A stretch of 64,000 nt of DNA from Candidatus Paceibacterota bacterium (GTDB taxonomy: Bacteria; Actinomycetota; Actinomycetes; Nanopelagicales; Nanopelagicaceae). The DNA lies in assembly GCA_035530615.1 (NCBI GenBank), contig DATKUL010000002.1, positions 558,001-622,000 of the forward strand. Direction: 5' to 3'. Below the pieces are notes generated by a model. The model was not told the DNA's origin, did no database searches, and worked only from the letters and a program-made list of their open reading frames with translations. Made by a program: the position numbers and the translations under genes. Shown piece after piece: positions 1-13,041 of the stretch. The first letter of the stretch is position 1; each line of letters opens with the position of its first letter.

Positions 1-51
1 GATCTGGTGAACTTCTTCGTGGACTCCCGGCGCCCAATTTCATCCCATTAG
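1..51 (+). CDS. possible 3' end of an unidentified gene cut by the window edge
   Basis: Frame 1 is open from the first base to a TAG at 49-51 and would encode a 16-residue tail (DLVNFFVDSRRPISSH). It is too short to identify. It lies about 45 bases before the TTGCCC cluster and 155 before the att-like core, which is where the last gene of a neighbouring element could end. This is an inference from position only. Confidence 0.2.
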   Translation, partial: DLVNFFVDSRRPISSH

Positions 52-451
52 CGCACGACAAGCCTGTCCACGATTTTGCCCATCTTGCCCAAAATTTGCC
101 CATATAAAATCGTAATTTTGCATTAGGTCTTGCACACTTCTCAAGCAAAGAAACTTACTGGAATAGGCGTGCAAGAGCGCACCAGAGAGTTGTAAAACAG
201 AAGAGTCGCCCTATAAGCCGGCAAAGCTCCTTCCATTCAATCGCTGGAGCATGCTGACACCACGGGCTCGTCATGGTCGATCACCTGGTGGTCGTCGGCG
301 AGGGCTGGTACAAATCGGCTCTTCTCGAAGGGCCGTAACCAAAGACCCTTCTCATGGTCACACCCTTTAGTTAGCATCGATCCATGTGTAACTCAATACC
401 TCAAACACATTTATCGTCGCATAACTGTTCCAATTAGGAGACTCTGATTCA
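52..451. other. non-coding stretch carrying an att-like site
   Basis: No convincing gene. Three TTGCCC motifs lie at 76-101, a small GTGC/GCAC hairpin near 169-182, the 15-bp core CGCCCTATAAGCCGG at 207-221, CTCCTT at 227-232 and the partial palindrome GGAGCATGCT at 246-255. The same order recurs at 11440-11650. A 21-codon frame at about 273-338 was noted but has no support as a gene. Confidence 0.5.
207..221. repeat. 15-bp direct repeat, left copy; putative attachment-site core
   Basis: CGCCCTATAAGCCGG occurs here and, in the same orientation, at 11590-11604. The last TTGCCC before it ends 106 bases upstream; at the right copy the distance is 105. Read on the other strand the core is CCGGCTTATAGGGCG, which resembles the 3' end of bacterial RNase P RNA (family pattern CCGGCTTA...). 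Whether this is a recombination site is inferred from the repeated architecture. Confidence 0.5.
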
Positions 452-1711
452 ATGACTGATGAGATGAGCTATGGAGATGCCATGGAAGACGAAGTGCGCA
501 AAATTGCGGCTCGTCTGGGCGTTGCCGACTTCGTCTACACCGTTCCAATACTTTCCAAGGGGGCTGGCGGCAGTCGAGAGGTCGGCGACGCCCTGCTTAT
601 CTCTAATGGACGCGGGGCAATCATTCAGGTAAAGACCCGTGAACCAAATTCACGCTCCGAAACTGGCGAGGCATGGTTGGCTAAGCACGGCGAACGAGCG
701 TACCGACAGGGACAAGGAACTCGACGACAGATTGGCGAAAAGCAAAAGTCCGGAGAGATACTCACTGCGTACCCTGTTCGCACAGAAAACTGGGCTCTAA
801 AGGTTCGGGGAGAGGCTGCCCTTTCGTTGGACATGGATGTCTCAGGCTGGCCAACCATCATCGTGGTGGATCATCCAAATGTGGACGGAACTCAACCCAC
901 GAGAACCGATGCGTTTTGGATTACGCCTGACGATTGGTTAATGCTGAATCGTGCCATCCGATCAGTAACGGGACTATTGATCTACGTAGAGCGCTCTCTC
1001 GAAGCCGGTCCAAGAGTCTGCCCGCCACTAGGCCATGAAGACGAGCGATTTCGTCAAATGGTCCAAGCAGACGCAGTTTTCTCCTCCACAGGCGGGAAAT
1101 CGAGTCGTCCCTGGCTGACTGCGGATTCTCTGAACGACCCGACTGGAGCACAGCTCTATCGAGAACTCCTTGAAAGGATCTGGCCAGAAAACCCAGAGGA
1201 GCTACCTCACGTACCGATTGGGGATGCGCGGCGGATTCTGGAATTTCTCGATGGCGTACCCCCTAGCATGCAAGCTGAAGCTGGTCGGTGGATTCTAAAA
1301 AAGCGTTCCGAAATAGTTGACGGAGTGTGGGCTTCCGGCGCATTGATGTTCAACAGTGAGCGTCTGTTTATCTTCGGTTGTTCACCGGCTAATTCGTTCG
1401 TAGATATTGAACACTTCGATGCCAAGCTTGCCTCTATCGCATGTGTTCGAGCTAAGGAAATTTCTATGCAAGGAGTCGCTATCACATCTCTTCTTGCCGT
1501 CGGCCACATAGTGGGAGATGGCTATATCGACTATCGGTACATCTATATGGAACCTCCTCGCGACGCTCCTGCAGAACTGATGCGGTCAATTAGACATCAC
1601 CATGGAATGTTCAACCTGAAAACTCGCGAGGTGAACCTCATCAAAGCTGAACGCAATGCGAGATGTCCGTGCGGAAGTGGACTCAAGTTCAAGTACTGCG
1701 ATAGGGCTTAA
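452..1711 (+). CDS. PD-(D/E)XK-like nuclease-related protein with C-terminal SEC-C motif
   Basis: The 419-residue protein has an N-terminal region with EVGDALLI (about residue 43) followed by IIQVKTRE (about 58-64). This fits the acidic-x(n)-(D/E/Q)xK core of the restriction-endonuclease-like fold. The extreme C-terminus (about 401-417, RCPCGSGLKFKYC) is a SEC-C zinc-binding motif. The middle, about 150-390, is unrecognised. The ATG at 452 has AGGAG at 437-441, so the start is well supported. The next gene overlaps its last 56 bases, suggesting coupled translation. SEC-C tails occur on many nucleic-acid or ribosome-associated proteins and on accessory nucleases. A defence or DNA-processing role fits the neighbourhood (ApeA follows) but is inferred; catalysis is unproven because the upstream acidic residue is not certain. 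Confidence 0.6.
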   Translation: MTDEMSYGDAMEDEVRKIAARLGVADFVYTVPILSKGAGGSREVGDALLISNGRGAIIQVKTREPNSRSETGEAWLAKHGERAYRQGQGTRRQIGEKQKSGEILTAYPVRTENWALKVRGEAALSLDMDVSGWPTIIVVDHPNVDGTQPTRTDAFWITPDDWLMLNRAIRSVTGLLIYVERSLEAGPRVCPPLGHEDERFRQMVQADAVFSSTGGKSSRPWLTADSLNDPTGAQLYRELLERIWPENPEELPHVPIGDARRILEFLDGVPPSMQAEAGRWILKKRSEIVDGVWASGALMFNSERLFIFGCSPANSFVDIEHFDAKLASIACVRAKEISMQGVAITSLLAVGHIVGDGYIDYRYIYMEPPRDAPAELMRSIRHHHGMFNLKTREVNLIKAERNARCPCGSGLKFKYCDRA

Positions 1712-2240
1712 CCTATCGACCAGGGTCTGCTCAGCGAAACCTAAGCGGAACAAGCTCCTTCCTAGAAGAGGCGCAGTCCTTGTTTCGGCTCGATGTGGCA
1801 CATCAGCAATCATCGCGTTTTACATCAACCTTGCCTCACTAAATGTAGTGGGCGAACTTGTGGTTCAGATAGTTGGCACATTGGTTGCCCTGATGTCGCT
1901 CGTGGCCAAGCATCAAGGTGGCAAGTCGCTTGTCGTCGGGCGGTTCATGGATGGTGTTCTGGTCGTCATCGGATTGAGCTTGTTGATGTTCACTACAGTC
2001 AACCTCGCCGCGCATTGGCAAGACATGGATCTTAAAACGACAGGGATGACGCTTGCGATGTCGATTTGGTTGCCACTCGCCCTGTTGCCCTTCATCTACG
2101 TACTCAGTTTCTATGCCGCAGCCGATAGAGTATTTACAATGTTGCCGTACTCGAATGAACGCAAGAAACCGAATTGGAAGGCCCGCCTCGCGGTGTGTCT
2201 GCCGATGGGGCAATTGCTCCATCGGCGCTGTGAGCCATAG
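1656..2240 (+). CDS. small integral membrane protein, unknown function
   Basis: The predicted 194 residues begin with about 45 basic, Ser-rich residues, followed by three or four hydrophobic segments: about 50-83, 98-117 and 132-155. The likely topology is membrane-embedded with a short basic C-terminal tail. The ATG at 1656 lies inside the preceding SEC-C gene in another frame. No in-frame ATG, GTG or TTG is seen before a GTG near 1848, which would remove the first membrane segment, so the overlapping start is preferred though its ribosome site is not obvious. The overlap with a nuclease-like gene suggests a two-gene unit (effector plus membrane partner), an inference only. I do not recognise the family. 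Confidence 0.5.
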   Translation: MRDVRAEVDSSSSTAIGLNLSTRVCSAKPKRNKLLPRRGAVLVSARCGTSAIIAFYINLASLNVVGELVVQIVGTLVALMSLVAKHQGGKSLVVGRFMDGVLVVIGLSLLMFTTVNLAAHWQDMDLKTTGMTLAMSIWLPLALLPFIYVLSFYAAADRVFTMLPYSNERKKPNWKARLAVCLPMGQLLHRRCEP

Positions 2241-2451
2241 AGCTTTCAATGAGTCAACGCCAAGGGCCACTGTTAGGCAAATCGGCCTTCATCCGGCGAA
2301 TGCTCCTTAGGTCTGAATTGGACCAGGAGTGCAAAAGATTGCCTGAAGTGCACAGTCCGAGCTACATGAGTAAGGTTCAATGCATCTCGGGTTATGAAGG
2401 AAAATGCTTGAAACGATTTGATTACTCTGGCTGCCCTGCCATGATGTATTC

Positions 2452-3846
2452 ATGTCCAACGTAAACCTTAAAGCTTCGAAAATCACGCCAAATGAGATCG
2501 GGGGACAAGGAAAGTGGTGGCTCCCAACATCCCCGGGCAAGACGGTGACCGGCATTTTGACTTACACGCCTACTGCGGGTGGAGTTCTTGAAATTTTAGG
2601 AAGCTTGGAGCCAATCGCTGGGACGGAATTCGATTCAATAATTTTTGGCGAGATAAAGGGCAAACTTTATACGCTTGATCATGGGTTTAGAACTCAGGAG
2701 CTCGAAGTATTCCCCAGTCCATCAAGTGAAGAAACTTGGATGTGTACGACGATATTTCGTGGCGCGCACCTACCGAACGCATCCCTGACTGTCTTTAGCA
2801 GTTGTGAAATCGAAACCCAACTTTTTCAAGGATGGGTGTATCGACCCAGACCACTGATTACTTCGAGAACGCGAACAAAACTTCGAACCTCAATCGAAAC
2901 GCCCTCCAGCTTAGCCGCGAACTTGGTCAATGGACGAAATCTGACTTTTCAGTGGAGAAGGTCGTACAACGTTGGGTTATTGGAAGTTTCGGCAGATGTC
3001 ACGCCCCTAATGAGAGTCACCCAAGTAAACGAAAGTCTCTACTGGATTCATGACGAACTAATAACTCCACTGATTTATTTGATTACGTTTTGTATGGGTA
3101 GCCCTGACAGCGTATCTCGTCTCACGGTTACATTTGAAGACCATGAGTTGAATGCGATCACCCCTATTGAAGTGTTTGAGATGCGCAGCCGTCCATCCAA
3201 TCAGCGCAATGTCCCACTATCACCGCATGAGCATATGATTCAATTGAGTGAAGTTGAGACTAGATTCGAGAATTTCATCAATGATTGGTTTTCACTATAT
3301 TCGGGCTCGAAATACGCTTTCATGGACTACTTTGCAACTCTATTCAATGAGGGTATGTACGCCGAAGAGATGTTTCTACGCATAATTCGTAGCTTGGAGA
3401 GCTGGCATACGAATCATAATAAGGGCATGAAATCTTCTGATTATTCCGTAATTCGGCGAATTCTAAGATCCATGAAAACTGTCTTACCCCCTCATGAACT
3501 TAAATTGATCGAAGATAAACTAAATCAGTTTAATGGACCTTCTTTGCGAGAAAGATTGGTTGTGCTCATTAATAACACCGAAATAGATATACGGACTTTC
3601 TTGACGGCGAAAAAGGATTTTGTAGTGCTTTGCCTAGCGACAAGGAATAGATTTACCCATCATTCTATTAAGCGCAAGGTTTTTGAAGGTGAGGACTTGT
3701 ACTGGGCTGAACAGTTCTTGACCGCGATATTTATATGTGAGGTAATGGCTAAGCTGTCATTAAGTAAAGCCGAAATCCAAAGAAATCTTCAAAGATCCAG
3801 ATTCGGAAGGTTAATTGATTCGAAGATTCAAAAGACTTGGCCCTAA
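2452..3846 (+). CDS. apeA: ApeA-type HEPN antiphage (abortive infection) protein
   Basis: The 464-residue protein begins with the pattern typical of the ApeA N-terminal domain 1: G-x-WWLP-x-SPG followed by G-x-L-x-Y and L-x-I-L-G-S-L (about residues 18-55). The C-terminal third is helical and contains ATRNRFTHHS at about 395-404, giving the HEPN catalytic signature R-x4-H. Family knowledge: ApeA is a single-gene antiphage system whose HEPN domain is an RNase thought to act on cellular RNA during infection. Length agrees with the family. The ATG at 2452 has no strong ribosome site just upstream. It stands alone, downstream of a nuclease-like/membrane gene pair and convergent with the next gene, consistent with a defence island. 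Confidence 0.8.
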   Translation: MSNVNLKASKITPNEIGGQGKWWLPTSPGKTVTGILTYTPTAGGVLEILGSLEPIAGTEFDSIIFGEIKGKLYTLDHGFRTQELEVFPSPSSEETWMCTTIFRGAHLPNASLTVFSSCEIETQLFQGWVYRPRPLITSRTRTKLRTSIETPSSLAANLVNGRNLTFQWRRSYNVGLLEVSADVTPLMRVTQVNESLYWIHDELITPLIYLITFCMGSPDSVSRLTVTFEDHELNAITPIEVFEMRSRPSNQRNVPLSPHEHMIQLSEVETRFENFINDWFSLYSGSKYAFMDYFATLFNEGMYAEEMFLRIIRSLESWHTNHNKGMKSSDYSVIRRILRSMKTVLPPHELKLIEDKLNQFNGPSLRERLVVLINNTEIDIRTFLTAKKDFVVLCLATRNRFTHHSIKRKVFEGEDLYWAEQFLTAIFICEVMAKLSLSKAEIQRNLQRSRFGRLIDSKIQKTWP

Positions 3847-3917
3847 AGGAATGATTGACTTAGACACTACTCATTTACTGTGAAAACTAGCCGACTCTTT
3901 GATAATTGGACTGTCAT

Positions 3918-4115
3918 CTATTCCCCTGCGTCGGTATTGAGCGAGATTCCAATTTCGACAAATACGCTCATTCCCGAGCCGATTTCTCTGCTAGCAGTCT
4001 CACTTTTCATTGATGCAATGACCGCTTGAGGCCAAGTCCCTTCGGGCGCACTCCGCAGTTGTTCATATTCCTCTAATTGTTCGAATGACATGAAAACGAT
4101 CGGCAAGGTTTTGGA
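3918..4115 (-). pseudogene. out-of-frame C-terminal extension of the DUF5677-like gene
   Basis: An open stretch of about 65 codons directly follows the suspected frameshift near 4115. It begins SKTLPIVFMSFEQLEEYEQL and ends NTDAGE before a stop at 3918. It has no start codon with a ribosome site of its own and reads naturally as the displaced C-terminus of the upstream frame. It could instead be chance open frame. Confidence 0.35.
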
Positions 4116-4836
4116 TTCGCGAACTCCAGGGCCTATCAGTCGTCATCTGATCCCAAGCCGTCAGCGTAAGGATTAAGGACACGACCTGACTACCGAATGC
4201 TTGTTCAACCCATTCGTATCGTGGCGACAATTCAATTGCGTATCCTTTTTCAGGATCTGCAAACTCATGCTTCACGTGCAAGTATTGGTGCAAAATGCTC
4301 TGTCCTGCATGAGAAACCTTGGATAACTTGCGGTACGGCAGATAGAGTGATTCTCCCCCGGCAAATCTCTTAGAGCGTTCTAGATGAGAGTGCGAAGCTG
4401 GAGCATCAAATTCAGCGAGTTTTTCAACTGCTGCATTCACTTGAGCGCGCCTTTCCTCAGACACGGGGACATTTATGTCTAGCATGTGCCTCAAGAGTTT
4501 CTGCTCTTGCACGGCATACCCATAATTCATTGCTTTTACTGCATTAGGTGTAACAGACACCCACGCCGCCGTGATTCCGCACTCAAGTGTCAATCGGATG
4601 AGAGGGATGGATTGAAGGTACATTCCATGCTCTGCCAGCAAAATCACTGATTCCGTGAGCGAAATTGCGTGTTCCGCTATTGTTCGAACGCACAGGCCCG
4701 TGTCGAAACTTTCGTCGACCTCCGGTACCTGAATTAGATCATCCCCATTTTGCCAAATATCCATGAGTTCTCTCATGCCCCCAAGGGATTTTTCGAGACT
4801 TGGAATTTGATGGCTATCCAAACTTGCTTCATTCAT
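4063..4836 (-). CDS. DUF5677-like protein, C-terminus probably frameshifted
   Basis: The 257-residue frame has a helical core with R-T-I-A-E-H and LIRLTLECGITAAWVS (about 70-115), the spacing seen in DUF5677-type proteins of unknown function that turn up in accessory loci. The assignment is by pattern and moderate. The last 17 residues look unlike the rest. In another frame at 3918-4106 an open stretch continues with acceptable composition (LPIVFMSFEQLEEYEQLR...). Removing one base near 4113-4117 would join them into about 305 residues ending at 3918. This may be a sequencing error or a real lesion. The gene lies alone on the minus strand, convergent with apeA. Confidence 0.5.
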   Translation of the reverse strand: MNEASLDSHQIPSLEKSLGGMRELMDIWQNGDDLIQVPEVDESFDTGLCVRTIAEHAISLTESVILLAEHGMYLQSIPLIRLTLECGITAAWVSVTPNAVKAMNYGYAVQEQKLLRHMLDINVPVSEERRAQVNAAVEKLAEFDAPASHSHLERSKRFAGGESLYLPYRKLSKVSHAGQSILHQYLHVKHEFADPEKGYAIELSPRYEWVEQAFGSQVVSLILTLTAWDQMTTDRPWSSRIQNLADRFHVIRTIRGI

Positions 4837-5156
4837 ACCTTCAAGTTAGAGCATTGCGCTGACACGAAGGCTCCGAGGTAGAAAGGTCGAGAATCTAAGG
4901 CTCAAGGGTTCGATCAAGACTCCCCGTGCCTCTTTCATCCCATCCGAACGCCTCGATTTACGCCTAACAACTTCTCAAATCGGATTTCTCAATCCTTCTG
5001 ATCGCTTTCTTTCCTTTAACGCCGTTTGATATCGCTTTGAGCTGAATAAAGTTGCCGTGTTCTCATGGGCAACGATAAGGGACCATCTTCAGTGCGCCCT
5101 TAAGAGCAACTGTTTCCCTTTCTTGAACGACTTGCAGAGATTATGACCCGAATGCC
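4837..5156. other. non-coding gap between two minus-strand accessory genes
   Basis: I see no gene, tRNA, strong hairpin or repeat here. It holds the upstream region of the DUF5677-like gene and the downstream region of the next gene; no promoter stands out. Confidence 0.4.
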
Positions 5157-5903
5157 TCACTTAACCCGAGTTATCTTCCCTTCAAAATATTGCCATCGGA
5201 CGTCATGAGGCCCATCAAAAAATGTTTCAGGGAGAGGCGCGCATTCCGAACTCACGGTTTCAAAAACTGCGCAACGGTAGGAAATTTCTTCAATACCAAG
5301 TTTTCCCTCCTCTGCCTCAACCAATTCCTTCACCATTTCTATATCAACCTGTTCCTTCGAAAAAAGTTCTTTGATAAAGCCATCAAGGTATTCTCGATTC
5401 TTTTCATGTTTAGTAACAACCACAACAGCGCTGACATATTGGTGATCAGTAGTTAGTTTCCCATTCCGACCCACCTGGTTCTGAGCTGAGAATCCCGTGC
5501 CTGGCCCAGGAGTGAATAGTGTGGAAATATCGCCGTACATAGCAGAGATGACGAATGTATCCCCTAGATTTACGCCAGCATTTAGCGGATTCGCAAGCAC
5601 GACAATAAGTGGGGTACTGGGATCTCTAAACGGTTTGAGTTGCTTAGCCGCGGCAGATATTTGATTCCGAACGGGAGCGACTAGCTCTCCAACGGAACGG
5701 GTAATCAGAGTTCCTGGGTTAGCCATCATCAAAGCTTCGATTCCTTGTGCTTCGAATTCCTTTACTTCGCATATAGCTCGAATCGCGTCTCTAAAGATGG
5801 CGAAGTCTGGCCTCTTTACTCCCCCAAGATCTGGTTCGAATTCGTAGGTATAGCCGTGAGAGGAAAGAGAGCCTGCAAACCATCTCTCAGATTCGGTTTT
5901 CAT
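5157..5903 (-). CDS. PD-(D/E)XK-like endonuclease-fold protein
   Basis: The 248-residue protein opens with MKTESERWFAGSLSSHGYTY, then RPDFAIF (about residue 30) and AICEVKEF (about 43-49). The E...PD-x(n)-E-x-K arrangement is that of restriction-endonuclease-fold proteins (a helix with E, then D and E-V-K on adjacent strands). The remaining two thirds are alpha/beta and unrecognised. No methyltransferase or helicase partner is adjacent, so it is not an ordinary type I-III restriction system; a standalone nuclease or DNA-interaction module is more likely. Family assignment is by motif; function is inferred. Confidence 0.55.
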   Translation of the reverse strand: MKTESERWFAGSLSSHGYTYEFEPDLGGVKRPDFAIFRDAIRAICEVKEFEAQGIEALMMANPGTLITRSVGELVAPVRNQISAAAKQLKPFRDPSTPLIVVLANPLNAGVNLGDTFVISAMYGDISTLFTPGPGTGFSAQNQVGRNGKLTTDHQYVSAVVVVTKHEKNREYLDGFIKELFSKEQVDIEMVKELVEAEEGKLGIEEISYRCAVFETVSSECAPLPETFFDGPHDVRWQYFEGKITRVK

Positions 5904-5995
5904 GGTCGACTAGTTATTCACTTTTGGTTGAAAAGGCGATGCATGTCACCCTTCGCACTCCAAACTTGACGGTTCGAATTCCATTTTCGACGGAA

Positions 5996-7270
5996 TCAAC
6001 CCAAAACTGCAAAATTCTCTAGCCATATATCTTTCGTAAAATTCGTAACTGGGACATCCGCGTCCTTCTCGAAACTATAAATCTCCGCACCAAATTCATC
6101 AGTATTAAAATTTAAGGTGGAAAACATTACCGAGTCATTTCCCAAGGAGGTTAATTCAGAAACGTACTTAAACGGCGCGATATTCACACATCTAATTAAT
6201 GTATTAACCAAGTTAATCTTGCAGAGTTCGTTCAGCGCAAGCTGTACTTCCCCTTTTGATTTGACAAAATAAAGAGTATTTCCATCTGATGAAGTCTGCA
6301 TCTGACTCAAAGATTTCATTCCATCGGGCTCACTGAATAGCCAATTAATTCCCGAGTTCTCTGCATAATCAAACATTGAACTTGATCTCGTCTTCATATC
6401 CAAAGCTTTCTTAATTGTTATAGTTGGGGCATCTTGATTGAGAGACAAAATGAAAGAGCGTGGTGTTGTGGTCTGTGCAGTCGCACCCTCCCACAGGAGC
6501 TCTAAACTCAGATACAGTTTATTAGAGTGATGGTCCGCCCTCAGCCCTGAAATGGAATACCCATAAGCACAACTCCTATCGGTAGACGAGTAACAATATG
6601 TAGAAAAAATAGGAGTCAACTCTCCTGAGGAGGTGTCGACTCGGTAGACAACTGATCTCACACCATCAATCGGTTGAAACTTGGTCAGCGCATAAACATA
6701 TTTTGGATCTCTCCCAAAGTTCGCGCCCGTAAACCAAGAGTACGAGAAAATATCCGGATGCTTTATTTTGTCTAATGAGACACTTGATATATTTTTGTCT
6801 TTTAGCCCACTGACAAAGAAGGAATTATTGCAGGAGGAAATGCAGGAAATAATTTTATCTTGCCAAATATCCAAGGGTTGAAAATTGCCAGGATAAGCCG
6901 TTTGATAGTCCAATCCGTCGACTATGAAGGCATAATCGGATTTCAAACTTTGCATTACCAAACTAAGATTCATTACCCCGTTCCGCTTTTTAACCCAAGC
7001 CATTCCAGCTAACTCATTTACTATTTTTGGTGCAGTTGTTTGCGTTGGCGTAGGGACCGGGGTTATTTTGGAGGCAGGTTTTACTGCCACCCCCTTATTC
7101 CAAATCGACGTAATACCTGACTTAATGCAGGTGTATTTCTTTCCGGAAACAATTGATGTTTGACCAAGTTTTTTGCAAACTGCGCCTGACTTGACTGCCG
7201 AATTCGCCGGCGACACTGATAGAATAATTATTCCTGCGACACTTACAAGGCTGAGTAGAATCCGCTTCAT
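5996..7270 (-). CDS. secreted protein with N-terminal cell-surface module, unknown function
   Basis: The open frame extends to 7357, but the ATG at 7270 begins a textbook signal peptide (MKRILLSLVSVAGIIILSVS, cleavage near PANSA|V), so a 424-residue product is preferred. After cleavage comes a short module with two cysteines (AVCKKLGQTSIVSGKKYTC), then a Pro/Thr linker (PVPTPTQTTAP) and a long beta-rich domain. That domain has several Cys pairs and repeated strand-turn units consistent with a propeller-like fold. I associate the N-terminal module with surface proteins of planktonic Actinomycetota. The substrate is unknown. It is unrelated to the defence-like genes next to it. Confidence 0.6.
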   Translation of the reverse strand: MKRILLSLVSVAGIIILSVSPANSAVKSGAVCKKLGQTSIVSGKKYTCIKSGITSIWNKGVAVKPASKITPVPTPTQTTAPKIVNELAGMAWVKKRNGVMNLSLVMQSLKSDYAFIVDGLDYQTAYPGNFQPLDIWQDKIISCISSCNNSFFVSGLKDKNISSVSLDKIKHPDIFSYSWFTGANFGRDPKYVYALTKFQPIDGVRSVVYRVDTSSGELTPIFSTYCYSSTDRSCAYGYSISGLRADHHSNKLYLSLELLWEGATAQTTTPRSFILSLNQDAPTITIKKALDMKTRSSSMFDYAENSGINWLFSEPDGMKSLSQMQTSSDGNTLYFVKSKGEVQLALNELCKINLVNTLIRCVNIAPFKYVSELTSLGNDSVMFSTLNFNTDEFGAEIYSFEKDADVPVTNFTKDIWLENFAVLG

Positions 7271-7676
7271 ATCCACAAAGTAGCCCTTTTCCCGCGTCTT
7301 TTCTATAATGGATAAATTTGCGTAAACACGATGTTCATATTGAGTCCTGCGATTCAAGAGCCTGAGGTCAAACGCATGCCGACGATACGTATAAGACGCA
7401 GGAACAGTGGCGAGTTGAGACTACATCTTCCCTACCAGGTCATATTCAGGGGGTAAAGAAAACTAGGACTCCATCCAGGGATGGCTAGGAAACAGTATTA
7501 GTTAAGTTGTACGGCAACTCGCCCCGTAAATTAGCAACCCTGGAATATTTGTCCGTTTCCATTCCGATTGCTATAAGAATTTGGACGAAATTAGACGAAG
7601 CTCTGCATAACTCGAAACTTGACGAAATGAGCACAAGCGATAGTGTTTCAGCGTAAATGTGTGCGTGAAGCACTTT

Positions 7677-7720
7677 CTACGGATCAGAAGATTCGGGGTT
7701 CGAATCCCTTCGGGCGCACA
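7677..7720 (+). pseudogene. 3' half of a tRNA-Arg(ACG) gene (integration scar)
   Basis: The stretch begins at the anticodon loop CTACGGA (anticodon ACG), followed by the 3' anticodon strand TCAGA, a variable loop, a T-arm with GGTTCGAATCC and the acceptor strand CGGGCGC plus discriminator A. The 5' half (expected GCGCCCG..., D-arm, 5' anticodon strand) is absent; unrelated sequence abuts at 7676. Integrative elements that enter a tRNA 3' end leave exactly this kind of 3' fragment at one end, so this is read as an attachment-site remnant. The intact tRNA is not in the window. Confidence 0.75.
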
Positions 7721-7729
7721 AGATCCAGC

Positions 7730-7745
7730 AACCCCACCAATCGTT
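7730..7745. repeat. 16-bp direct repeat, left copy
   Basis: AACCCCACCAATCGTT occurs here, ten bases after the tRNA-Arg fragment, and again at 8606-8621 in the same orientation. The two copies bracket the membrane protein gene at 7875-8576. Confidence 0.7.
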
Positions 7746-7874
7746 AATGCAACCCTTAAGAAAGACCTCCCTAAAGGAGGTATGGGCAACCGTCTGTCCT
7801 ACAAGTCGTTAATGTCCTCTTAGCCGGAATGGCGAATTATCAGAAATTTTCAATAAATCAATGAGGATCCGAAC

Positions 7875-8576
7875 TTGAACACCCCTTGGCCGTTAGAATC
7901 TCGGTTTATGGTGACGCGAAAGAGTGTAACTGAGTTCAGATCTTATCCCCTTGTACGCATCTTTCTGAAGGAATTGATTCTGATCGAGCAAGTGATGCAG
8001 CAACTAAAAAGTAGTGATTCTGAGATTCTTGTGGAAACTGAAACGTGGACGGCCAAAACGCTCCAAGAGTTAAAAGACGCCGACCCCCAAGAAATGTCAC
8101 CTCGGAAATTGAGTATTACGTGTGTCGAGCCTACATTGTCCATTTCAATAGAGCGGGGATCGTTGTCCAAGTTGTACGCGGGGGACATCAATGATCTACG
8201 TGTCCGCGGTGCCGTTGACAAAATAGATTCAATTCTGAAGGAATGCAAGGCGGCGCCTTTTGCGAGGTTCTTTGGTTCAACCAGGGGTTGGGCGGTCATA
8301 CTCCTGCTTGGAGTCATTATCAATGGAATACTCATTCTAGGTAACGTCGATAATGCATTCGTGACTCCAGGCATGCTTGCATTTATCGCGGTCGGTTTTG
8401 CCGGGTCAACTATCGGAGTGGATAGATTGAGTCGTAAATCTTCTGCCAACCTATTTAATCGCGAGATCAGAATTGGTTTTTTTCGACGCAACAAAGATCG
8501 CATTATTTTAGGCATTTTCTTTACCGCGCTAGGTGCAGCGTTAACGTGGCTCGGCACACGGTTGTCTCAGCACTGA
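7875..8576 (+). CDS. membrane protein with cytoplasmic N-terminal region, unknown function
   Basis: The 233-residue product has about 135 soluble residues followed by three hydrophobic segments: about 138-157, 162-180 and 210-230. The proposed start is TTG at 7875, because AGGA at 7864-7867 lies 7 bases before it; the ATG at 7908 lacks a ribosome site. I do not recognise the family. The gene sits between two copies of a 16-bp direct repeat and just after a truncated tRNA, so it may have arrived as a separate insertion. Composition (soluble domain plus C-terminal membrane anchors) would suit a membrane effector, but that is speculation. Confidence 0.5.
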   Translation: MNTPWPLESRFMVTRKSVTEFRSYPLVRIFLKELILIEQVMQQLKSSDSEILVETETWTAKTLQELKDADPQEMSPRKLSITCVEPTLSISIERGSLSKLYAGDINDLRVRGAVDKIDSILKECKAAPFARFFGSTRGWAVILLLGVIINGILILGNVDNAFVTPGMLAFIAVGFAGSTIGVDRLSRKSSANLFNREIRIGFFRRNKDRIILGIFFTALGAALTWLGTRLSQH

Positions 8577-8605
8577 CTTTACTTGAAATAGCAACATAAC
8601 TCGGG

Positions 8606-8621
8606 AACCCCACCAATCGTT
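8606..8621. repeat. 16-bp direct repeat, right copy
   Basis: Second copy of AACCCCACCAATCGTT, 30 bases after the stop of the membrane protein gene. The bases following it (GGTGTAATCC) still resemble those after the left copy (AATGCAACCC), so the homology may extend further with divergence. Confidence 0.65.
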
Positions 8622-8750
8622 GGTGTAATCCTTTCCACGCCGTGATCTATAGGTGGGTGTGAGCGCTCGGCTGTTCTGCAAGCCGTTAGAAGCTCCTAAG
8701 CGCTTCAATGGTCTATTGACGAATCGGCTCCTAAATTCTAAGTTCCTAAT

Positions 8751-8978
8751 ATGAATGAAATGGGAATAAGCATGCAGGACCTTCAAGGGCGCTTAAGACC
8801 GTTGGCTATGGTAAGTGGACCAACCGCGTTGAATGACAGTGTTAAGGAACTTAAATCGTGGGATCACGCTGACGACATGGCACGGGATTTTGGAGTGGAT
8901 CCGAGAATGATCACATGGGGGCCCGGCACCTTGGATTGGTGCAAATCAGAATGGGGTGAGCCTCCTACAAGGAACTAG
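8751..8978 (+). CDS. small hypothetical protein
   Basis: A 75-codon frame, or 68 from the ATG at 8772, which has GGGAATA just before it. The product contains SWDHADDMARDFGVDPRMITWGPGTLDWCKSEWG and has no signal or membrane segment. It is isolated by more than 170 bases on either side. Its Trp/Asp-rich composition is plausible for a real small protein, but it may equally be a relic of a longer gene. No family is recognised. Confidence 0.3.
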   Translation: MNEMGISMQDLQGRLRPLAMVSGPTALNDSVKELKSWDHADDMARDFGVDPRMITWGPGTLDWCKSEWGEPPTRN

Positions 8979-9256
8979 GTAAAGCTCCTATCTTTGGAAC
9001 TTCCCTTGCTTTGGTTCTTTCGCATGAAAGAACAAAGCCTTGTTTCAGTTGCTAGGTGTAACCACTTTTCGAGCCATTAACTCACTCATTTCATAAGTTA
9101 GTTTGAGTAATGGTCGGTGAATGCCGCGACGTCGAGAGCAACGGACACCGGGTGGTACGTACTACTAGCAACGGCGGCTTCGTGCATCCATTATGTTTGC
9201 GCGAGTTTTGGCCGAAATAAGGGTTCTTAACCTTCCAATGATTGCTATTCCATCAA
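8979..9256. other. non-coding gap before the large secreted protein
   Basis: No gene or strong structure is evident; it presumably holds the promoter of the following gene, which I cannot place with confidence. Confidence 0.3.
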
Positions 9257-11278
9257 ATGAGTCGCATGATTACCATCATGAGCTATCGGAAACTCGTCAC
9301 GGTCTTGTTAACTCTCCTTCTGAGCATACCCACTACATTGGCTTCAGCTGCGGGAAGCCTTGGGGTCAATGGCATTCTTCAAATTCAAACCCCCTTCCCG
9401 CTTTCCGTGCCTGCAACAAGTGACAGAATAGATATTTCGGTTTCATTGCCGAGTTCCGTCACCCTTGGCTCCAACGATGTCATCACATGGTCTGCATCCG
9501 CGACTATGGAGACAGTCAATGGTTGGGCGACTTCGTTCTCGAGCAGTGGCGAAAGCACGTACACGGATGGTTACTTCCAAATCACTTCTCTTGGGCGAAG
9601 CGCGACCATCACTTTCATTCCGCCAACGCTGTCAGGTGATTATGCGATACATATCCAAGCAGCCATTGGTTCACACACTTACGATGTGAGTGGCAACATT
9701 CATGTGGGGAGCAATATACCTCCTCATTACTGGCTTGATTCAATTTCAGGGGCTAAATCCACGATTCTAAATCCCAGTGTGGGCAAAGACTTGCAAACAA
9801 CTATCGGCTTCATCGGTTCTGGAGTGACAGACGTTACCCCCGTCAATTGGAAAGGCGAACCATTAAAAGATGGGGGTTACGCTAATGATGGACAGACGGT
9901 GAAATTTCAAGTCAAATATCTCGATTACTTGAACCAAGGCTTTGCATTAAAGTTGCATCTGTGGAGTTGTAGCACTTGGATAATGGAATGTCTCAATTTT
10001 TACAAGACTGTCCCAGTTACTATTGATTTTCCGCCACCTACACAAACGGTTTCTGCGTCATGTGAAGATGTATACAAAGAAAAAGAAACTTTTTGTCACC
10101 TTTCCCCAGACAGCATGGACCCTACTGGAACGAAGGTTCAGCAAGGTCAAAATGTTAAAATGACATGGAGTGAATCTGTGGATGGTGCAATCACCAAATC
10201 TGGAACTGTCGATGGTCTTATTGGCGCTGATACACAAGTCGCCATCGGTCCGGGGACAAAGCCGATAACTTTCTCAGCTAGAATTGTGGGCCAAAATGTA
10301 GACGTTACGACAACTGCTCCATCTCACGCTTATTCTTTGTTAGAGACTGTTGGAGTGGTTTGGAGCATTAGTTGTCAGCAGTCCAGTGGAATGGCAAAGT
10401 GTATCGCGAAGCCCAGTGTTGTCCCGAAGACAGGCTTTGATATGCCAGCGACAATTCCGCTTCAAGTGGTGTCCAATAGTTCTGGAATACGGAAAACGCT
10501 AATTTCTGTAAGTGTCGTTCCCAATGGAAATTACAGTTTTTCAGTAGCCGTCAGCACGAAAATTCAATCTCTTAATGTTCGCGTCAGTCCCAGTGATTCA
10601 GGGGCATCTTGGAAGAATCCATCGTTTATCATGCCCTTATCTAATGGCGATGTAAGTGTGACGCTTAGTTGCCCGACTTACATAACAAGCACCTTCGTAT
10701 GTACAGTTTCTCCAAAATCCCAGGTTCATTCGTCCCAGAAGATAACTGTCTTAATACAAAGGAGACCTGGAGAAACGGGTTCGTGGAAATTGGACCAACA
10801 GGTGCAACTTAATCTTGGTCAGAGTAAGAAAGTTACTCTCAAAGGGAATGGACGTGCCCTCCAGGTTAGAGCATCACTGAAGGGATTTTCCGGAACCAGT
10901 AAAATCTTTAGTTGGGCGGATGCGCAACCAAAAGCAAAAACTGGGCTCTTTACCGTAGCCAACACAATTTCCGCTCTTGAGTTGTCTCTTGGGGTTAAAT
11001 TTGAATATGGCGTTGCGATACCTCTTTGGTGGAACGGCGTCCATCTCGCAGAAGGGTATTTTACTACCGATGCTTCAAACCTCTTTATCATGATTTATCC
11101 AAGCGCAGGTGGTCTGCAAGGGGATGATCCCCGTTCTCTACAGGTCATGCAGCAAATGGGTAACAGAAATGCGCTTGTATGTAACAACATGTGGATTGTC
11201 TATCCTCCAAATATCAAGCAAAAAATTTCCTCTGCGGTAAATTCAGTTGCACTTGCTAACAAAGTCAGTTGTAACTAG
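9257..11278 (+). CDS. large secreted protein with repeated two-cysteine Ig-like units
   Basis: From the ATG at 9257 the product is 673 residues; in-frame ATGs at 9266 and 9278 are alternatives and none has a clear ribosome site. A signal peptide is evident (YRKLVTVLLTLLLSIPTTLASAAG). The mature protein is Ser/Thr/Val-rich and beta-stranded. Three units share an SC-x(7-9)-C-x(1-3)-(S/K)P pattern: SASCEDVYKEKETFCHLSP, SISCQQSSGMAKCIAKP and TLSCPTYITSTFVCTVSP. The first two lie about 95 residues apart and the third a further 105 on, suggesting tandem Ig-like domains with one disulfide each. The C-terminus has another Cys pair. No sortase motif or membrane anchor is seen. Likely surface or extracellular; ligand unknown. 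Confidence 0.6.
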   Translation: MSRMITIMSYRKLVTVLLTLLLSIPTTLASAAGSLGVNGILQIQTPFPLSVPATSDRIDISVSLPSSVTLGSNDVITWSASATMETVNGWATSFSSSGESTYTDGYFQITSLGRSATITFIPPTLSGDYAIHIQAAIGSHTYDVSGNIHVGSNIPPHYWLDSISGAKSTILNPSVGKDLQTTIGFIGSGVTDVTPVNWKGEPLKDGGYANDGQTVKFQVKYLDYLNQGFALKLHLWSCSTWIMECLNFYKTVPVTIDFPPPTQTVSASCEDVYKEKETFCHLSPDSMDPTGTKVQQGQNVKMTWSESVDGAITKSGTVDGLIGADTQVAIGPGTKPITFSARIVGQNVDVTTTAPSHAYSLLETVGVVWSISCQQSSGMAKCIAKPSVVPKTGFDMPATIPLQVVSNSSGIRKTLISVSVVPNGNYSFSVAVSTKIQSLNVRVSPSDSGASWKNPSFIMPLSNGDVSVTLSCPTYITSTFVCTVSPKSQVHSSQKITVLIQRRPGETGSWKLDQQVQLNLGQSKKVTLKGNGRALQVRASLKGFSGTSKIFSWADAQPKAKTGLFTVANTISALELSLGVKFEYGVAIPLWWNGVHLAEGYFTTDASNLFIMIYPSAGGLQGDDPRSLQVMQQMGNRNALVCNNMWIVYPPNIKQKISSAVNSVALANKVSCN

Positions 11279-11445
11279 AGCAAAAAGGTGGGAAATATTC
11301 CAATTTACGAGCGCATGTTCTTAGGCGACAGGCGGCGGCACATCCGTTCCCACTCTTCCCTACGCCCGAGGCTTTGGCATTAAAGGCCATGCCGTAGATT
11401 CCGAGCGCCACAGACTATTTAGATTGCCACTAAACCTACGTACCC

Positions 11446-11486
11446 TTGCCCGACTTTCTTGCCCGACTGCCCGACTTTCTTGCCCG
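11446..11486 (+). repeat. tandem CTTGCCCGACTTT-type repeats
   Basis: The motif (T)TGCCCGACT is repeated three to four times with a spacing of about 10-17 bases. TTGCCC is also repeated three times at 76-101. At both sites the last copy lies 105-106 bases before the shared 15-bp core, so these could be arm-type binding sites of a recombinase. This is an inference from symmetry of layout. Confidence 0.5.
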
Positions 11487-11547
11487 TGAAAAATCCTTTA
11501 TTTGCGATAAGTGCTGTCAGAATTTGTTGCACATAAATCGGGAAAGC

Positions 11548-11570
11548 GTGCGGAGTTTTTACCTCCGCAC
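11548..11570. other. 8-bp stem hairpin upstream of the right att-like core
   Basis: GTGCGGAG and CTCCGCAC form a perfect 8-bp stem with a 7-base loop, ending 19 bases before the core repeat. The left site has a shorter GTGC/GCAC hairpin at the same relative place. Confidence 0.5.
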
Positions 11571-11589
11571 CCCGAAATGAGAGAAAAGC

Positions 11590-11604
11590 CGCCCTATAAG
11601 CCGG
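11590..11604. repeat. 15-bp direct repeat, right copy; putative attachment-site core
   Basis: CGCCCTATAAGCCGG matches 207-221 exactly. Here the similarity to an RNase P RNA 3' end is longer: on the minus strand the stretch reads CAGGATCCGGCTTATAGGG, close to the family's conserved CAGAACCCGGCTTA. No RNase P RNA body follows on the minus strand, so it would be a 3' fragment only. Confidence 0.5.
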
Positions 11605-11856
11605 ATCCTGCCCTCCTTTAGAACGGACAAAACTTGGAGCAACGCATGCTCAGCAATGAATTCTGGGGACTCCCAAATCCTGATATCTACACTCCTTTTA
11701 CCTCCCGAAGAAGATTTATTAGTGACTTCAAAGTCTGACTTAACGTTTTAACGTGTGGTAAACAGGTGAGCAACCTAGGATATTTTGAAGAGTCTTACAG
11801 CCCTTTGACCCGCTCAAATATTTCGTTATATTAGAAAAACTGAATATGTGCGTCCC

Positions 11857-11887
11857 TGCCAGGTGACTCTTAGTCATCTGGCAGGCG
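11857..11887. terminator. long inverted repeat, possible terminator
   Basis: CCTGCCAG/CTGGCAGG (8 bp) continues, after one mismatch, into TGACT/AGTCA (5 bp) with a 3-base loop. No clear T-run follows on either strand, so it is either a factor-independent terminator of weak type for the TPR gene ending at 12013 or a regulatory or protein-binding site. Confidence 0.35.
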
Positions 11888-12012
11888 TTTCAATCCGGGA
11901 CTGGCCTACATTTGTTCAAAAACTTGGAACGCCGAATCTCTATTGATATCGAAGTTAGTGGGTAGTTCATTTTCACTACGGTCGATCAATGTCGGGGAAG
12001 AAGAGAATAGCG

Positions 12013-13041
12013 TTACGAGGTTTGTGAACGCTCCAACGCATCTGTCGAGCCATCACGATCCAACTGCGCACACTTTCCAAACCATTCCTTAGCCTCAGAC
12101 TTTCGTCCAGCGGCATCAAGCGCATCTGCATATGCATAACGCAATCGGACTGACCATTCAGCACCTTCAGTTTTCAACTCTTTGCAAGTTAAAGTGATGA
12201 CGGCAGCATCCAACTGACCCATATCGCGTCGGGCCCCGGAGGCGACAATTCGCATCTCAATCTCTTCTGCCTTCTCCAGTTTAGTTACTTCAGGAGAGCC
12301 AGCCATGTCGAGCGCCTTCTGCGGGCGACCTAACCCTCTCTCGCAATCAGCCATCACGGGCCACGTGGAAACATCTCCGGAAATCCTATGAGCCGCTCTT
12401 AGTTCACGAAGGGCTATTTCATATTTGCCCGCACGATAGGCGGCGTATCCTGCTGACTCACGAGCAACTGCAAGACGACCTGCATGATGTGCAGCAGCCA
12501 TTCCATGCAGGTAAGCGCGCTCTGGATCTGAATCAATAAATATTCCGACACAAACTAAATGCCGTGCAACGACTTTTGCATTATCCGCAGAAAGGGAAAG
12601 CAATTCTGCCCGTGCAGACTTCTCTAACTCTTCGCCCGTAACTTCATCGGGAATAAGAGGTTCAACAATTCGTGGACGAAAACGCGTCGGGTCACTGGAA
12701 CGCCCCATCGGAGTTCGCGGGGAGACGGCACGACTGTTTCGGTCTCCGGCAGTCTTGGAAATACCTGGACGTCTTGCACCGGCGCGATCCGGTCTTCCAC
12801 CTCTTGGGCTATCCGAACGTGGACGATCTGAAGTTGGTCGGTCCGAACGTGGACGATCTGATGAACTACTTTGTGGACGCGATGTAGTGCTGCTGGAAGA
12901 CGGTCTACTGCTTGAAGGACGGCCGGATGATGGCCTTCCACTTGAAGAAGTACCCGATGTTGAACGTGATGACGGACGGCCAGATGAAGGACGGCCAGAT
13001 GAAGGACGTGAACCCTTACATGGCGGGCGTCGTGAATCCAT
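12013..13041 (-). CDS. TPR-repeat protein with Ser/Arg/Pro low-complexity N-terminus
   Basis: The 342-residue product begins with about 110 residues built of RPSSGRPSS- and DRPRSDRP-type repeats (12710-13010 in DNA), highly basic and surely disordered. Residues about 140-335 form TPR-like helical pairs, for example YAAYRAGKYEIALRELRAAH and YAYADALDAAGRKSEAKEWF. It starts at an ATG with GGAGCAAGG just upstream. It lies directly after the rRNA operon on the same strand, beyond the operon's terminator. The basic tail could bind RNA or the envelope; function is unknown. The repetitive DNA is prone to length variation. Confidence 0.75.
   Translation of the reverse strand: MDSRRPPCKGSRPSSGRPSSGRPSSRSTSGTSSSGRPSSGRPSSSRPSSSSTTSRPQSSSSDRPRSDRPTSDRPRSDSPRGGRPDRAGARRPGISKTAGDRNSRAVSPRTPMGRSSDPTRFRPRIVEPLIPDEVTGEELEKSARAELLSLSADNAKVVARHLVCVGIFIDSDPERAYLHGMAAAHHAGRLAVARESAGYAAYRAGKYEIALRELRAAHRISGDVSTWPVMADCERGLGRPQKALDMAGSPEVTKLEKAEEIEMRIVASGARRDMGQLDAAVITLTCKELKTEGAEWSVRLRYAYADALDAAGRKSEAKEWFGKCAQLDRDGSTDALERSQTS

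Follow-up and report, generated by a model that had tools for sequence, protein, structure and literature searches.

A tRNA-Arg(ACG) 3' half beside a box-bounded gene cassette in an actinobacterial genomic island is probably a decayed integration footprint

We found an orphan 3' half of tRNA-Arg(ACG) in an actinobacterial genomic island, and conclude that it is probably the degenerate core of an attachment (att) site, used by a tyrosine-integrase element that recombined in the anticodon loop of this tRNA gene. The source element was most likely a temperate phage or integrative island recognising the tRNA-Arg gene. The half lies within a 64,000-nt stretch of DNA that was analysed as a whole (the window, C2:558001-622000), part of a 2.16-Mb genome in three contigs (C1, C2 and C3). 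As a displaced tRNA fragment at an att site it belongs to a known kind of ordinary footprint; it is one more example of a well-known class, and its value is that of a pointer. The novel part is the system of box-bounded cassettes next to it. The features concerned, in window coordinates, are as follows.

7677..7719, plus strand: orphan 3' half of tRNA-Arg(ACG), tRNA positions 32-74 (anticodon loop to acceptor end); 95.3% identity to C3:17564-17637, in a window without a predicted tRNA
7728..7761, plus strand: first of two cassette-boundary sites ('boxes'), 9 nt beyond the 3' end of the tRNA half; model R1, E=5.6e-9; alignment A1
8604..8637, plus strand: second box, closing an 876-bp cassette; model R1, E=1.6e-5; PWM score 34.5
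7875..8576, plus strand: 233-aa ORF of the only cassette here, without a match to any family; two stretches look hydrophobic by eye
1..11900, no strand: right-hand part of a ~43-kb island (C2 ~526.9-570.0 kb), missing from seven congeners; in L100-L105 and L116 the HAD and TPR genes are direct neighbours
195..221, minus strand: rnpB (RNase P RNA) 3'-end scar, left copy of the '207/11590 core'; 96% over 27 nt to the rnpB 3' region at the C2 end
11582..11610, minus strand: rnpB 3'-end scar, right copy of the '207/11590 core'; 93% over 29 nt
12013..13041, minus strand: TPR-repeat gene, the conserved right-hand island flank, downstream of the rRNA operon; orthologues in 10 other congeners, 79-90% identity
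13138..18253, minus strand: rRNA operon; Rfam rRNA matches

A preliminary description of this DNA had reported a 3' tRNA-Arg(ACG) fragment that starts in the anticodon loop and has unrelated DNA in place of its 5' half, and the fragment is present as described. Around 7677-7720 the window reads ...gtgcgtgaagcacttt|CTACGGATCAGAAGATTCGGGGTTCGAATCCCTTCGGGCGCACA|agatcca..., and the anticodon loop opens at tRNA position 32, which is where the half begins. In an alignment to the gene alone, 41 of 43 bases are identical to the genome's own tRNA-Arg(ACG) (95.3%, E=1.1e-12), a match beyond chance; a BLAST search of the same genome with a 68-nt query returned the intact gene (C3:17561-17606, minus strand, 93%, E=7.7e-14). 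Exactly one tRNA-Arg(ACG) gene, on the minus strand of C3, is present among the 60 tRNAs predicted by ARAGORN, and Rfam family RF00005 likewise has 60 matches in the genome. The fragment had been described as 44 bases long, reaching the discriminator base; 43 of these are borne out and the last is not, because base 7720 is A in the window and T in the gene. The two substitutions within the half change G to A in the variable loop and A to C in the T-stem, breaking a pair. ARAGORN found no tRNA at this position or elsewhere in the 64,000-nt window, and the 5' flank (gcgtgaagcacttt) does not resemble the 5' half of tRNA-Arg (gcatctga). Given the broken T-stem pair and the lack of anything like a 5' half, we conclude that this is a fragment and not a gene.

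The base at which the half starts recurs well outside this genome. Among 60 genomes of relatives, where most full-length matches are intact tRNA-Arg genes, several orphan halves start at the same base as that in the window; our BLAST query itself started at position 32, and the orphan flanks, read directly, extend the match by at most 4 nt. In G021, an orphan half without any mismatch to the intact gene is found 2.0 kb 3' of that gene, and those in G030 and G037 lie 5.4 kb and 22 kb from intact tRNA-Arg, so that all three sit 2-22 kb beyond the tRNA, as do element ends. The modules in G021 and G030 hold ordinary cargo without an integrase, and the interval in G037 includes a tyrosine recombinase. 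The half in G002 is followed by the terminator that often follows tRNA-Arg(ACG) in the genus. That in G013 derives from tRNA-Arg(TCG), and there a 386-aa tyrosine recombinase ends 75 bp beyond the 3' end of the intact tRNA-Arg(TCG). The same start is found in an orphan half of a more distant actinobacterium, in several IMG/VR contigs (actinobacterial proviruses) and in Corynebacterium phage Poushou, which has a tyrosine integrase nearby. Altogether the half is present in 139 actinophage records, with an annotated Y-integrase near it in both records inspected, those of Poushou and Mycobacterium phage Bipper. The method is able to detect other starts: the T-loop is where a second group of remnants begins (C3:444784, C2:60551 and several in G017, G005 and G015). 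The start shared by relatives, proviruses and phage identifies 7677 as a used edge of the tRNA-Arg att core, and it supports the earlier proposal that the half is the scar of a tRNA-targeting element. The fragment begins at an integrase crossover position, is 3'-terminal, is highly identical to the host tRNA and lacks the 5' half.

Elements of this type carry a tRNA 3' half as their attP, and their integration restores the host tRNA at one end and leaves the 3' half at the other. We propose that the attP of such an element would have recombined with tRNA-Arg(ACG) in the anticodon loop; the shared breakpoint suggests that the cut at position 32 was made by a tyrosine integrase. The core could then have reached its present place as an element-borne copy that entered the composite island by another route, or as an attR that was separated from its tRNA by rearrangement. 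We slightly favour an element-borne copy, because the 3' flank of the half matches no relative's tRNA-Arg 3' flank. Afterwards, the element and its integrase would have been lost, and the core would have decayed by two substitutions. Counting against an att core are the lack of a second att copy, of an intact integrase and of a tRNA-Arg gene in the island, the same failure to match the 3' flank to the tRNA-Arg 3' flanks of relatives, and the abutting cassette site, which, since cassettes are able to carry tRNA-like genes, offers a competing origin.

The box is a conserved ~34-bp site, GCAACCCC-ACTAATCGTTAAT-RCAACCCC. About 30 boxes occur in this genome, nearly all in co-oriented clusters, and box arrays are present in 8 of 21 genomes of the genus (window 7728-8637, L049-L052 and L154-L169); the PWM null was 0.4 matches at a score of at least 12 per set. 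Whole box-to-box cassettes are found in more than one genome, where they stand among different neighbours. These shared cassettes measure 848 bp (87.5% identity), 797 bp (86.8%), 872/870 bp (80.5%) and 283 bp (82%), with a further, tRNA-Val-like one of 470-477 bp; outside their boxes identity is near chance and the flanks are unrelated. Searches with the exact box pattern gave no match in IMG/VR and 8 stretches in GTDB contigs, all of them Actinobacteria MAGs.

tRNA-like genes are a recurring cassette cargo. Genes resembling tRNA-Val (TAC/CAC), with a scaffold unlike that of normal tRNA-Val, lie in cassettes or at array heads (L051 8084-8158, L049 15466-15542, L157 8907-8981, L161 2065-2139, L159 7049-7124 and L165 846-920), and tRNA-Ala-like (CGC) genes occur in L156 and L162. 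We considered a systematic link between tRNA-Arg halves and boxes and rejected it: only one of 19 array heads, that in the window, has a tRNA-Arg half beside the box. At two further heads, tRNA-Val-like genes lie less than 400 nt away. The adjacency in the window may be chance, and array starts may be marked by the 3' ends of RNA genes that lie near some heads (those of tRNA-Val-like genes, and the tRNA-Arg half).

Like integron arrays and CALIN, the boxes delimit co-oriented cassettes of one to a few genes with a common site, and the cassettes are exchanged between genomes as whole units bounded by that site. Unlike them, the ~34-bp site has no hairpin: we found no inverted structure upstream or downstream of the box and no complementarity to its flanks, which argues against an integron attC, and the fold z was about 0 over 85 boxes. 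By our own count, the longest ORF is antisense in about half of 62 cassettes, a share unlike that in integrons. No integron integrase was found in this genome; both of its full-length tyrosine recombinases score best as XerC/XerD, and TIGR02249 is far below cut-off for both. CALIN are by definition without a neighbouring integrase, so the missing IntI counts against an integron only. A dif/XerCD site was also rejected, since the candidate dif of the genus (mostly CCGATAAGTTACATTATGTTAA, in 20 of 21 genomes, here at C2:503798-503819) is unlike the box by eye, as was the 3' end of a conserved gene, for which there is no match in 13 congeners without arrays. No such cassette system is described for these bacteria in the literature searched, whose coverage was partial. 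We tentatively suggest that 7728-8637 could be the one-cassette case of a non-integron system of freshwater and groundwater Actinobacteria, with an unstructured ~34-bp site, co-oriented arrays, cassette exchange between genomes and a putative trans-acting recombinase. The box cassettes resemble an integron substitute that does without hairpin sites. If this is borne out, they would offer small-genome Actinobacteria another way of shuffling single genes, with a recombinase worth finding.

Could the half itself be a remnant of tRNA-Arg cargo at the 3' end of a box-bounded cassette that has lost its 5' part? In other cassettes, tRNA-Val-like or tRNA-Ala-like genes stand ahead of a terminator and a box (a tRNA-like gene comes before a box in L049, L051, L157, L159, L161, L162 and L165), and the half ends only 9 nt before the box at 7728. 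However, the tRNA-like genes before boxes belong to a different tRNA family, those inspected have a terminator and at least ~115 nt before the box, and we found no tRNA-Arg cassette. Moreover, the truncation point is the integrase crossover seen in phages and relatives, and we regard this origin as unlikely.

Random deletion of the 5' half of a duplicated tRNA-Arg gene would account for a fragment in an island where other tRNA genes (Val CAC, Val AAC) are present. It would require the breakpoint to coincide with an att edge used elsewhere, a coincidence that we estimate at ~1 in 40-70, and many other 3'-only remnants were met in the genus but no 5'-only ones, making such a deletion very improbable. 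Hardest to credit is a kept functional RNA signal, such as a tRNA-like 3' processing or decoy element. The T-loop and the 3' strand of the acceptor are indeed kept, and by eye other tRNA 3' ends follow closely on genes such as atpC, but the 5' acceptor strand is missing, one T-stem pair is broken and the half is not conserved at this locus in congeners.

As had been stated earlier, the putative att core lies inside an accessory block. In seven congeners xerD-pyrG-recN-nadK-tlyA-HAD directly joins the TPR gene (gene names by eye), and we take this as the empty site; here ~43 kb separate HAD from TPR. The intact tRNA-Arg(ACG) had been expected to the left of the island, and that expectation was wrong, the sole copy being on contig C3 (C3:17564-17637). 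The 43-kb island has no tRNA-Arg gene and no second copy of the half, and its only intact tRNAs, tRNA-Val(CAC) and tRNA-Val(AAC), are on the other strand than the half. Nor does it have an intact integrase, the only trace being a sub-threshold fragment with a stop at C2:545312; PF00589 matches in the whole genome are restricted to XerC/XerD-like proteins and fragments at C1:471740 and C2:545312. Two defining features of Islander-type islands, an intact cognate tRNA in the same orientation at the opposite end and an integrase gene within the interval, were tested and are absent, and we therefore do not class the half as part of an intact tRNA-borne island. With no second att copy, intact integrase or tRNA-Arg in the island, the element is not delimitable, and the half does not form the second end of any island recognisable today. 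The island has a possible tRNA-Pro/Arg 3' remnant near C2:536777. It also carries defence genes, for an ApeA-like HEPN protein (window 2452-3846) and, left of the window, an HmaABC-like set (L021 1861-11509).

The preliminary description inferred that at least two integration histories overlap here, and this held up. Both copies of the 207/11590 repeat are RNase P RNA 3'-end scars, in minus-strand orientation (CCGGCTTATAGG-GCG...). Where rnpB itself lies (contig junction C3/C2; L024, C2 end), the gene is followed by three further copies of its 3' end, which BLAST reports as 98%, 75% and a 33-nt stretch; such differences are as would be expected of serial insertions of different age. These repeats suggest that rnpB is an integration target, and a limited literature search on rnpB as an att site found nothing relevant. 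The tRNA-Arg half and the rnpB pair are scars from two RNA-gene targets; thus, several integration histories are stacked in an island beside the rRNA operon to whose making several integration systems contributed (tRNA-Arg, RNase P RNA and box cassettes).

Both the tRNA-targeting genomic islands and prophages of the Islander definition (PMC4383910) and the tRNA gene fragments described from attR sites (PMC9897764) share with the window half a displaced 3' tRNA fragment, an anticodon-loop crossover and surrounding accessory DNA. In contrast to Islander-type islands, the element behind the half has no definable limits, and both an intact integrase and an intact tRNA at the opposite end are missing. 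Small cassettes closed by direct repeats of tRNA 3' ends are a feature of the additive flexible genomic islands of 'Ca. Actinomarinales' (PMC7771536) and 'Ca. Methylopumilus' (PMC10872708). The integrase-less modules of the family studied here (1.2-13 kb) similarly end in tRNA 3' repeats at tRNA-Arg, and scars have moved within islands in both cases; in contrast to additive islands, the 3' end of RNase P RNA seems to serve as a site as well, and the window half is far from its tRNA. The attP of actinophages at tRNA-Arg(ACG) (Poushou, Bipper and Gordonia phages) has the same 38-44-nt core. Phage cores lie near an integrase gene, and that of Bipper inside a repressor gene, whereas both are absent at the window half. 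We asked whether an antisense ORF at 7571-7789 (minus strand), reading CAPEGIRTPNLLIRR as the antisense of the tRNA half, could be a phage repressor gene lying across attP like that of Bipper; we judged it spurious because its N-terminal part is the box read in antisense.

In this genome, insertions beside RNA genes are frequent. A 3.3-kb element remnant (L054 7008-10438) consists of tRNA-Phe, a truncated integrase and a 33-nt tRNA-Phe 3' end, and also holds an ImmA/IrrE-like ORF (by eye). A 1.2-kb single-gene module follows tRNA-Arg(ACG) and is closed by a decayed 14-nt tRNA-Arg end at C3:16367. Further orphan tRNA-Arg 3' ends are found at L022 1784-1805, directly after atpC (by eye), at L022 12775-12809 and at L023 8551-8572; the two in L022 each lie ~200 nt before a tRNA-Val(GAC) gene. 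Just 3' of tRNA-Arg(TCG) there is a 28-bp tandem repeat, CCGTTAATTAATAGGGGTTAATTCGGCG (L019 1-136 and the C1 end, L027), at which the assembly breaks.
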